The notes beneath the pieces are model-generated. The model made no database searches. It was not told the origin of the DNA and saw nothing but the letters and a program-made list of their open reading frames with translations. Shown here in pieces: positions 14,724 through 18,800 of a stretch of 40,524 nucleotides of DNA (position 1 is the stretch's first letter; the number at the start of each line of letters is the position of its first letter). The stretch is taken from assembly GCA_001798595.1 (NCBI GenBank), contig MGSS01000142.1:1-40524 (forward strand), read 5' to 3'. The position numbers and the translations under genes are program-made. The stretch comes from Deltaproteobacteria bacterium RIFCSPLOWO2_12_FULL_60_19. Lineage in GTDB: Bacteria; Desulfobacterota; Binatia; UBA9968.

Positions 14724-14849
14724 CAGACCGGTCGAAAAGGTCCCAGATACAAGGCGCGCGACAATCTGACGAGCGCAGGCGTACTCTTTTTGTACGTCGA
14801 GCGAGGCAGATCAAGCGGAACGAAGTAGATGGGCCTTTTTCACCGGTCT
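14724..14849. repeat. 126-bp palindromic dispersed element, copy 1
   Basis: A near-complete stem-loop: the start CAGACCGGT pairs with the end ACCGGTCT, and a GTAC/GTAC pair closes the tip. It lies between convergent genes and supplies the stop codon of pyrE, so it may also act as a bidirectional terminator. A second full copy is at 18674-18800 and a 20-base fragment at 21893-21912. Several stem positions differ between the copies in a compensatory way. Confidence 0.88.
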
Positions 14850-15516
14850 ACACAAAGCCCATCTTCCGTCCCCAGTTTTCGGGGTCTTTGAGAAAGTCCA
14901 CGATCTGCTTGCTCGCGTCGGCGCTGAAGTATTTTTTGCTCTGGCCGGCCTTGAGAACGTGGTCCCAGTTGGCGAGCGTGTAGAGTTTGATGTCGTGCTC
15001 GGCCAGGTTTTTCTGTCCTTCGTGCAGGTTGAGGTTATCCGAGCCGTACTCGAAGATGCAGAGGCAGTGCGTGATCTTCGATCCTGCGCCGCGGATGCCG
15101 ATGTTGAAGCGCAGCTTGCTCATCCCGTCGGTGATGAGATCTTCGACCAGTAAGACTCTTTGATTCGCTTCGAGGATGCCTTCGATCTGCTTGGTCCCGC
15201 CGTAGCCTTTCGGCTGCTTGCGGATGTAGATCATCGGCTTCTTGAGCTCGTGCGACACAAACGCGGCGTACGGGATGCCGGCAGTCTCCCCTCCGGCGAC
15301 GACGTCGATGGCGTCGAGCCCGATCTCGGTCTCAGCCTTTTTCGCCATCTGATGGACGATCTCCGCCCGGACATCGGGGAAAGAGAGCAGCCGCCGGCAA
15401 TCGATGTAAACGGGCGAGACGCGGCCCGAGACAAAAACGAACGGCCGCTCCTTGTAGAACTGGATGGCCTCCGTGCGCAGCAGCATTTCGCCGATCTGAT
15501 TGGCAACTTCACTCAT
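14848..15516 (-). CDS. pyrE: Orotate phosphoribosyltransferase
   Basis: A 222-residue enzyme of de novo pyrimidine synthesis, converting orotate and PRPP to orotidine monophosphate in the cytoplasm. The PRPP-binding signature is VLLVEDLITDG, and SGRVSPVYIDCRRLLSFP is the N-terminal orotate-site region; VVAGGETAGIPYA is also typical. The start at 15516 is fixed by a strong ribosome site (AAGGAGG, nine bases upstream); the open frame continues upstream without one. The last residues (KMGFV) lie at the edge of the palindromic element, which provides the stop. It stands alone, with no other pyrimidine genes near. Confidence 0.92.
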   Translation of the reverse strand: MSEVANQIGEMLLRTEAIQFYKERPFVFVSGRVSPVYIDCRRLLSFPDVRAEIVHQMAKKAETEIGLDAIDVVAGGETAGIPYAAFVSHELKKPMIYIRKQPKGYGGTKQIEGILEANQRVLLVEDLITDGMSKLRFNIGIRGAGSKITHCLCIFEYGSDNLNLHEGQKNLAEHDIKLYTLANWDHVLKAGQSKKYFSADASKQIVDFLKDPENWGRKMGFV

Positions 15517-15626
15517 GAATTTCAACCTCCTTGGAAACAAACCGCTTGTAACATACACATCCCATCTTTTCCAATGAAATATGACTTCTTGCTTTTCCCT
15601 TTCGATTTGTCTACAAGTTCCGCATC

Positions 15627-15950
15627 ATGAAGATCGCGCGACTCTACACGGGCAAAGACGGCCACTCTCACTTCGACGAGATCGACGTCGAGGCGAAGCA
15701 GCTCCAGCCGACGGAAGGAATCGTCTTCCGCGAGGAGCCTCCGGGCCACGTTCAGGACTGGCACCCGGCGCCGCGCCGCCAGTACGTCATCACGCTCTCC
15801 GGCGAGGGAGAAATCGAGCTTAGCGACGGGACCAGGCGGCGATTCGGCGCGGGCGATATTATGCTGGCCGACGACACCACGGGGCGAGGCCACATCACGC
15901 GCGTCGTCAGCGCCCAACCGCGCCGCTACGTCACTATTCCGCTAAAATAG
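15627..15950 (+). CDS. Small cupin-domain protein
   Basis: A 107-residue single-domain beta-barrel protein. A cupin-like core runs from WHPAPRRQYVITLSGEGEIE to FGAGDIMLADDTTGRGH, with His residues in both motifs, so a metal site is plausible though the usual HxH pair is incomplete. Such small cupins may be enzymes or sensors; no specific activity can be assigned. It precedes the MFS permease gene by 16 bases on the same strand, suggesting one transcript. No ribosome site is obvious at the ATG. Confidence 0.75.
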   Translation: MKIARLYTGKDGHSHFDEIDVEAKQLQPTEGIVFREEPPGHVQDWHPAPRRQYVITLSGEGEIELSDGTRRRFGAGDIMLADDTTGRGHITRVVSAQPRRYVTIPLK

Positions 15951-15966
15951 GCATCCCCGAGGATTC

Positions 15967-17171: not shown

Positions 17172-18578
17172 ATGGCCGAGCGTGCGACCACCCTGCTGCG
17201 CGAACTGCCTTCCGTGGACCGGCTGCTGAAGCATCCGAAAAGCGCGGCGCTGCTGGCCCGCTACAACCGCAATTACATAACGCAAAAATTCCGCGAGACG
17301 CTGGACCATTTGCGGGAGTCCATTCAGAAGGGCAACTCGGTCGCCGCCGAAGAGTTGACGGACGATTCGATCCTCGCCCACGCCGAATCGCTTGTCCTTG
17401 CCGACGGGAGGCCCGGCCTGATCCGTGTGGTCAACGCCACGGGAACGATCCTCCATACGAACCTCGGCCGCGCGCTGCTTCCTCAGGCGGCGATCGAGGC
17501 GCTCTCCCGCGTGGGAACCAATCCCGTCAACCTGGAGTACGATCTTGCCGAGGGGCGGCGCGGCAAGAGAGAAGAAGGCGTCGAGCAGGCGCTGGTCGAG
17601 CTGACCGGCGCCGAGGCCGCCACCGTCGTCAACAACAACGCCGCCGCCGTCCTGCTGGGTTTGAACACTTTGGCGGACGCCAAAGAGGTCATCGTCTCGC
17701 GCGGCGAGCTGATCGAAATCGGCGGCTCCTTCCGCATCCCCGAGGTGATGGCCAAGAGCGGAGCGAAATTGAAAGAAGTCGGCAGCACCAACCGCACCCA
17801 TCCCGAAGACTACGAGAAGGCGATCGGCAAAAAGACGGCGCTCTTGCTCAAAGTTCACACGAGCAACTATAAAATCGTCGGCTTCTCCGCCGAAGTGGGG
17901 CTGGAAGAGCTCGTCGCCATCGGCAAGCGACATGAAATTCCGGTGATGGAAGATCTGGGCAGCGGCGCCTTTACCGATCTCAGCCAATACGGCTTGCCCA
18001 AAGAGCCGATCGTCGCCGAGCGAATCAAGCTCGGCGCGGATATCGTCACCTTCAGCGGCGACAAGGTGCTCGGCGGGCCGCAGGCCGGGCTCATAGTCGG
18101 CAGGAAGGCATGGCTCAGCCGCATGAACAAGAACCCGCTCAAGCGCGCCCTGCGTTGCGGCAAGCTGACGCTCGCGGCGCTGGAAGCGACGCTCAGGCTC
18201 TATCAGCAGTCGGCGAACATCACCGAGGATATTCCGACGCTGCGAGCCTTCACGCGGCCGCTGGACGAGATCGAAGCCCTGGGACGGCGGGTCATGCCTG
18301 AGCTACAGAAAGTTCTGGGCGGAGGATTTCAACTCGCCGTGGAAGACTCGACCTCACAGATCGGGAGCGGCGCGCTGCCGACGGAAGAGATTCCGACGAA
18401 AGTAATCGCGGTTTCAAACCCAAACATGGGCGCGGAGAAGATCGCCCGGAAATTCCGCACCGCCGACCCCCCGATCCTCGGCCGCGTCAAAGACAACCGT
18501 TTCCTCCTCGACCTGCGAACCATCTTCGATCCCGTCGACCTGGTCCCGAACTTCACTCAACCCGCGGACAAGACATAA
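17172..18578 (+). CDS. selA: L-seryl-tRNA(Sec) selenium transferase
   Basis: A 468-residue PLP enzyme that converts seryl-tRNA(Sec) to selenocysteinyl-tRNA(Sec) using selenophosphate. It aligns along its length with E. coli SelA: INATGT-like block VVNATGTILHTNLGRALL, VVNNNAAAVLL, VSRGELIEIGGSFRIP, KVHTSNYKI, and the PLP lysine K298 in TFSGDKVLGGPQAG. The ATG at 17172 gives the family's normal N-terminus (LPSVDRLL). The frame is open far upstream, but that part only overlaps the MFS gene. No ribosome site is clear. selB and selD follow on the same strand, making a complete Sec-insertion set apart from tRNA(Sec), which I did not find. Confidence 0.97.
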   Translation: MAERATTLLRELPSVDRLLKHPKSAALLARYNRNYITQKFRETLDHLRESIQKGNSVAAEELTDDSILAHAESLVLADGRPGLIRVVNATGTILHTNLGRALLPQAAIEALSRVGTNPVNLEYDLAEGRRGKREEGVEQALVELTGAEAATVVNNNAAAVLLGLNTLADAKEVIVSRGELIEIGGSFRIPEVMAKSGAKLKEVGSTNRTHPEDYEKAIGKKTALLLKVHTSNYKIVGFSAEVGLEELVAIGKRHEIPVMEDLGSGAFTDLSQYGLPKEPIVAERIKLGADIVTFSGDKVLGGPQAGLIVGRKAWLSRMNKNPLKRALRCGKLTLAALEATLRLYQQSANITEDIPTLRAFTRPLDEIEALGRRVMPELQKVLGGGFQLAVEDSTSQIGSGALPTEEIPTKVIAVSNPNMGAEKIARKFRTADPPILGRVKDNRFLLDLRTIFDPVDLVPNFTQPADKT

Positions 18579-18582
18579 CATA

Positions 18583-18655
18583 ATGAAAAATGCAAAGTGC
18601 AAAATGCAAAAAGCAAAATTTTTCGTTTTTCAATTTTCATTTTGCATTTTGAATT
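18583..18655. repeat. Inverted TGCAAAA heptamer repeat between selA and selB
   Basis: ATGAAAAATGCAAAGTGCAA on the left and CAATTTTCATTTTGCATTTT on the right are inverted around TTTTTCGTTTTT, giving a long AT-rich hairpin directly after the selA stop. It is followed within 20 bases by the palindromic element. Confidence 0.85.
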
Positions 18656-18673
18656 TAAGAAAGATTTTTCTTC

Positions 18674-18800
18674 CAGACCGCTCAAAAAGGTCCCAGATGC
18701 AAGGCGCGCGAGAATTGGCGAGCGCAGGCGTACTCTTGTGGTACGTCGAGCGAGACAATTCGAAGCGCAACGCCACAGATGGGCCTTTTTCAGCGGTCTG
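18674..18800. repeat. 127-bp palindromic dispersed element, copy 2
   Basis: The start CAGACCGCT pairs with the end AGCGGTCTG. The tip is GTAC TCTTGTG GTAC. It lies between selA and selB and ends nine bases before the selB ATG, where a ribosome site would normally be. Compared with copy 1, stem changes are compensatory (for example GAATTG/CAATTC here, ATCTG/CAGAT there). Confidence 0.9.

Follow-up and report, generated by a model that had tools for sequence, protein, structure and literature searches.

Element copies in the window

The window (the whole analysed stretch of 40,524 nucleotides of contig MGSS01000142.1 from Deltaproteobacteria bacterium RIFCSPLOWO2_12_FULL_60_19) was found to contain two copies of a palindromic element and a broken third copy, as follows.

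14724-14850, + strand: hairpin part of element copy 1 (covariance model, 130.3 bits; left terminal repeat not recognisable)
14733 with partner 14841, + strand: conserved C-C mismatch of copy 1 (C-C in 36 of 39 copies)
18674-18800, + strand: hairpin part of element copy 2 (covariance model, 127.0 bits; left terminal repeat not recognisable)
21882-22150, - strand: broken third copy, a longer form with a second palindrome (best blastn match to four extended copies from this genome, 97% over 39 nt)
21888-21915, 21952-21990 and 22120-22150: pieces of the broken third copy, with other sequence in between

Copy 1 was flanked by the ends of an NMT1-type substrate-binding gene (+ strand) and of pyrE (- strand), and the TAG stop codon of pyrE (14848-14850, - strand) was found to form the last bases of the copy. 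Copy 2 was located between selA (stop 18578) and selB (ATG 18810), which are spaced by 231 nt, followed by the presence of TTAG (18801-18804) on its right flank. The broken third copy was found to start with CTAG (21882-21885), the TAG of which is the stop codon of selD.

The sequence-only reading had placed two copies at these sites and had described an end-to-end stem-loop with a GTAC/GTAC tip. Both copies were placed by one covariance model and were found to fold in this manner, and the paired exchange of ATCTG/CAGAT for GAATTG/CAATTC between them is real. The swap of G-C to C-G at the eighth base was present in the two window copies but did not hold as a rule, a standard pair being found there in 15 of 39 copies and none in the other 24. 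The arm fragment reported at 21893-21912 was present, with a length of 22 nt (21893-21914), as part of the broken, reversed third copy. The window had been described as lacking a transposase; none was matched among 31 of the 32 called genes and one more open reading frame that were scanned, the remaining called gene being a 36-codon fragment at the right edge. No Rfam family matched the window at the gathering score, and the two weak matches found at E up to 1 were both located outside the elements.

Copies in the genome and spread among other genomes

The whole-genome nucleotide search (E up to 0.01) found at least 44 matches in the genome of origin, at least 40 of them long; 40 of 81 candidates were scored, and the copy number is thus a lower bound. 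The 27 copies compared from this genome were 71 to 98% identical (median 82%). Among related MAGs, a match was found in 22 of 25 genomes of the same family and in 1 of the 33 other genomes searched alongside them.

At E up to 0.001 and with at most 11 candidates scored per genome, the covariance model built from 39 copies, which fits both window copies, matched 128 of 297 sampled genomes and 90 of 199 genera of the phylum. The exact core pattern was found in at least 111 stretches of named genomes. The titles among the matches listed included Desulfobacterales, Geobacteraceae, Geothermobacter, Syntrophaceae, NC10, Rokubacteria, Nitrospirae, Peptococcaceae, Selenomonadales and Bdellovibrio, although the title of a MAG is not proof of its host. 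One copy used as query found no match in plasmids or phages, and the exact core pattern found none in viral contigs. The family is general and real, a widespread mobile hairpin element in bacteria that extends to MAGs titled as other phyla and has no Rfam match.

Intact unit, terminal repeats and target sites

The intact unit was found to be longer than the palindrome by about 20-60 nt on the left side, which had been overlooked in the sequence-only reading. The terminal repeats of intact units were about CAGGNTGYTGAAAAA and were flanked by CTAG, the right terminal repeat being the right arm of the palindrome. Most copies started with CAGRCC and finished with GGYCTG, with GTAC at the tip. The inner left arm, which reads TCAAAAAGG in the majority of copies, differed from the terminal repeat (TGAAAAAGG) by one base, C for G, which accounts for the C-C mismatch in 36 of 39 copies.

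The unit of the Peptococcaceae MAG BRH_c4a was found to be 185 bp in length from TAG to CTA. Exact ends were present on 16 copies in this MAG, of which 15 measured 185 bp and one 182 bp; 10 of the 16 were identical. The copy pattern itself demanded TAG and CTA; beyond TAG the outer base was C in 15 copies and T in one, and beyond CTA it was G in 16 of 16. The terminal-repeat pattern was found 28 times forward and 30 times reverse in BRH_c4a (control 1 and 0), and 18 times forward and 20 times reverse in the genome of origin (control 0 and 0). Five copies of Rokubacteria/NC10 were 152, 152, 161, 213 and 213 bp in length from CTAG to CTAG.

In the genome of origin, at least 10 units (L221-L228, L230, L232) were found to contain the common ends with another interior, of the CTTCGA..GAACGG type. 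A YTA was found within -3 to +6 of the right end in 19 of 37 copies of this genome, compared with 6.9% at random places. CTAG, itself palindromic, was present on both sides of most intact copies; a target-site duplication was clear on the IS5-type insertion sequences described below. Units of the genome of origin with flanks other than CTAG often had two unequal sides, e.g. ATAG/CTAA, and an empty site was not detected at base resolution; both findings count against the favoured reading. Longer forms contained a further right-arm insert of about 150 bp, which looked palindromic by eye.

An IS110-family (RNA-guided) transposase gene was located in L165 (561-2059), inserted in an element copy near the right arm. 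It was rejected as the driver of the element. Viral contigs were also found to contain units of 155-277 bp with ends of the same type and no element match (L262, L276, L287, L288, L290).

IS5-type insertion sequences with common ends

A viral contig was found to contain an insertion sequence of 1372 bp that is bounded on each side by the 19-nt end CTAGGAGGCTGCTGAAAAA. Its transposase was of the IS5 type, with the DUF772 and DDE_Tnp_1 halves in two loci and the whole in L396, and the protein matched 291 plasmid records at E up to 1e-20. Among ten plasmid loci picked from these homologues, seven contained element-type terminal repeats, e.g. CTAGCAGGCTGGTGAAAAAC on both sides in Methylomonas. Element-type ends were thus found in 8 of 11 IS5-type loci examined (one viral contig and seven plasmid loci) and were absent from the three plasmid loci L398, L399 and L402. 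In six of these eight loci the target 4-mers, read by eye, were equal on the two sides (CTAG three times; TTAG, CTAA and ATAG once each, these last three being non-palindromic), and in the other two they were one base apart. Three of these transposases passed the NCBIfam cut-off for transpos_IS5_4.

The insertion sequences of this group (one annotated as ISAzs10 family) share with the element the terminal repeats and the CTAG/YTAR-like 4-bp target repeats. Unlike the element, they carry a transposase gene and no palindrome, and their hosts here were mostly Proteobacteria plasmids.

A PF01609 search of the four carrier genomes G000, G058, G059 and G061, in which 7 of 13 loci were typed, detected no IS5_4-type transposase, which counts against movement by such an enzyme; the typed loci were of the IS1182 type in the genome of origin and IS4-, IS701- or IS1634-like or unnamed elsewhere. 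Such repeats are often lost from MAGs. The autonomous element was also not found in 17 PF13546 and PF01609 loci of carrier genomes, nor by a repeat-pair scan of 35 viral-contig loci (L266 examined closely and four for inverted repeats); the scan worked per locus and missed the 1372-bp element, which has its two ends in neighbouring loci. In the complete genome G256, where the repeat matched 93 times forward and 87 times in reverse, 17 of 20 stretches contained an element match and three a partnerless repeat, and no autonomous element was found.

The element is very likely a MITE (a transposable element that is short and non-autonomous), and an IS5-family transposase most plausibly moves it in trans. 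The units are short (mostly 152-185 bp, some 213) and, judged by this size, have no transposase gene; terminal inverted repeats are present, though not visible to the left of the two window copies; near-identical copies are dispersed, as in BRH_c4a; and insertion sequences with common ends were found, none of them inside the carrier genomes searched. The MITE type proposed in the sequence-only reading is thus supported by the terminal repeats, the CTAG flanks, the recent dispersal and these full-length insertion sequences, and its proposal of a selected fold also stood, whereas its likening of the element to REP/BIME did not.

The unit would be laid out as a target, a left terminal repeat, a spacer and the roughly 126-nt palindrome, the right arm of which serves as the right terminal repeat, followed by a second target. 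A transposase, presumably of the IS5_4 group, would recognise the two terminal repeats and insert the unit at CTAG-like sites with a 4-bp duplication. Insertions into coding sequence would be lost and a CTAG can hold a TAG stop codon, so that copies would survive at gene ends and junctions. Selection presumably acts on the folded + strand as single-stranded DNA or RNA, and the one-base difference would prevent the inner arm from being used as a third end.

Position relative to genes

By gene positions from a simple in-house caller, copies were located inside called genes in 0 of 37 cases in the genome of origin, 1 of 16 in its relatives and 4 of 92 in others. The right end was within 18 nt of a gene in 31 of the 36 copies of the genome of origin whose neighbour on that side was no more than 400 nt away, compared with 4 of 36 for the left end of the palindrome. 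Counting against the reading given here, divergent placements, which were few in the genome of origin (2 of 35) and in pattern-found copies (3 of 66), made up 4 of 11 in relatives. The pooled numbers of convergent and divergent placements were 20 and 9 (p 0.06).

The selA-selB junction contained no element in 17 other genomes of the same family in which the selB motif was found after selA; the element is therefore a newcomer between the two genes. These element-free junctions also ruled out an operon-specific regulation of selB. One genome of the family (G017) contained an element upstream of selA.

Fold, covariation and strand bias

The fold z-scores of copies 1 and 2 were -6.4 and -7.6 for the + strand as RNA and -3.7 and -5.1 as DNA, and none of 200 dinucleotide shuffles folded as well. 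Across 39 copies and 37 pairs, 96.2% of cells were found to pair, compared with 91.0% in shuffled alignments and 31 to 39% when slid. Double-sided changes were found in 16 of 37 pairs (7.7 in shuffles), and the covariation was 0.214 compared with 0.116. None of 500 shuffles reached any of the five structure measures, although the kinship of the copies inflates such measures. Among departures from the commonest pair in the 27 copies of the genome of origin, 90 cells kept pairing (55 double changes and 35 wobbles) and 38 broke it, so that pairing was not broken as often as kept. A small hairpin on the left side was rejected, its loop motif being found in 36 of 187 copies, 9 of which had stems of at least 4 bp compared with about 5 in shuffles.

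In 100 copies from other genomes, read on the strand shown, 3180 cells were Watson-Crick, 255 were G-T/U, 47 were A-C and 144 were other. These were the best 100 of 112 places, with 29 further same-place matches dropped, in an alignment fitted to the covariance model in which related sequences are counted repeatedly. The G-T/U and A-C counts were 141 and 47 after the removal of two pairs with at least 30% wobbles. The basal helix overlaps the terminal repeat and had no wobble bias (16 G-T/U and 18 A-C cells), whereas the other helices contained 125 and 29 without the two wobble-dominated pairs. A sign test over pairs gave 21 against 8 (p 0.012). Strand-blind change predicts equal G-T/U and A-C counts, and one strand is therefore favoured; since G-T/U exceeded A-C, a single strand of the element, as RNA or single-stranded DNA, probably matters. 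Selection on the fold, as had been suggested from the two window copies, is supported by the pairing in the 39 copies and the wobble counts in the 100.

Alternative explanations of the fold and of mobility

It is possible, though rather doubtful, that this is an IS5-type MITE family in which one folded strand is selected in its own right, e.g. for a role of the hairpin in transposition or its control, with the inner arm told apart from the true end by one base. The fold may instead be neutral, with template switching or gene conversion keeping the arms of the inverted repeat alike, which is unlikely. Such processes yield double changes without function, the unbiased basal helix fits them, and strand-biased C-to-T change on exposed DNA could partly mimic the wobble excess; the excess in the other helices, however, persisted without the two wobble-dominated pairs, and homogenisation would erase the C-C mismatch and a G-U pair kept in 38 of 39 copies. 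Retention of copies, besides mobility, as host RNA hairpins at gene junctions (a bidirectional terminator or mRNA stabiliser) appears improbable. The location at gene ends and junctions, the G+C stem followed by a U tract on both strands (by eye) and the covariation with wobble bias would agree with an RNA hairpin, but the wobble-tolerant strand was not preferentially transcribed: with both neighbours codirectional, sense and antisense placements were 31 and 52 overall (10 and 16 in the genome of origin, 4 and 3 in relatives, 17 and 33 in others). The orthologous selA-selB site lacks the element elsewhere, and the A tract pairs with the U tract; a terminator scan flagged no elements, but its loop limit excludes them.

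A REPIN-like element, with conserved inverted arms around a hairpin spacer and mobilised by a Y1 (RAYT) transposase as single-stranded DNA, is very improbable. REPINs have a like design in which compensatory changes are common (cited part of PMC3116915), the wobble bias toward one strand fits single-stranded DNA, and the presence of Y1 and of the element was associated (odds ratio 2.6 and p 0.0004 without correction for descent; 105 phylum genomes with both, 23 with the element only, 107 with Y1 only and 62 with neither). Three Y1 (RAYT-like) genes were found in the genome of origin, but none had an element in the flanks covered, and two elements were present in 33 Y1 loci (93,668 bases; 30 of 81 Y1 matches of ten genomes and the three own). 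The 23 of 128 element genomes without a Y1 match, 13 of which have 8-11 scored copies, show that Y1/RAYT is not obligatory for the element, and its ends are those of IS5-type elements. REP hairpins have a GTAG-type foot. Membership in REP/REPIN was rejected, as no Y1 gene is linked and the ends of the copies contain no foot of this type.

Relation to known elements

The element resembles ERIC in being an intergenic, dispersed palindrome of about 127 bp that is treated as a MITE (cited parts of PMC10969869 and PMC2759123), but a search of E. coli records at E 0.01 gave no nucleotide match. The Chunjie MITE of Geobacter uraniireducens, likened by description only, has TIRs, direct repeats, a length of 178-235 bp and an intergenic location (cited part of PMC10969869) and may be a relative. 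In Geobacter metallireducens, 24 predicted short RNA elements are intergenic with the central palindrome GRCGTAGCGCTGCTACGCC; they are likened by description and by this palindrome, and are not called mobile in the cited part of PMC2700814. Relatives of the element with a GTAGC-type tip were found in a Geothermobacter locus (L076). REPIN/RAYT systems share the hairpin, the conserved inverted arms and the compensatory changes (cited part of PMC3116915) and differ from the element, which has no RAYT link and has IS5-type ends.

The genomes of G. metallireducens, G. bemidjiensis and Pelobacter carbinolicus contain many multicopy intergenic sequences, some of them palindromic (cited parts of PMC2700814, PMC2996986 and PMC3543383), and judging by this likeness the family may already be partly catalogued in these genome papers. 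Literature searches by words and short sequence strings found no paper describing the element by sequence in the text returned. MITE transcripts can be cut by RNase (cited part of the MITE review PMC10969869). The family is relevant to the annotation of gene ends, to terminator prediction and to assembly. The strand-biased covariation raises the testable question of why a MITE keeps its fold; a selected fold, if true, would set the family apart from MITEs that are no more than passive end pairs.

Other features of the window

The NMT1-type substrate-binding gene (13715-14709) was found to contain two overlapping frames, both matching NMT1, and the split is a frameshift or an assembly error. 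The selD gene contained an in-frame TGA (20887-20889), upstream of the start at 20917 in the list of open reading frames, and because of its context (RLTRHVKAAG-U-AAK) SelD is probably itself a selenoprotein. A+T-rich repeats of the TTTTGCA / AAATGCAAAGTGCAAAATGC type were found in both orientations at 7961-8027, 10466-10564, 18582-18670 and 20777-20815, the one at 18582-18670 directly preceding element copy 2.
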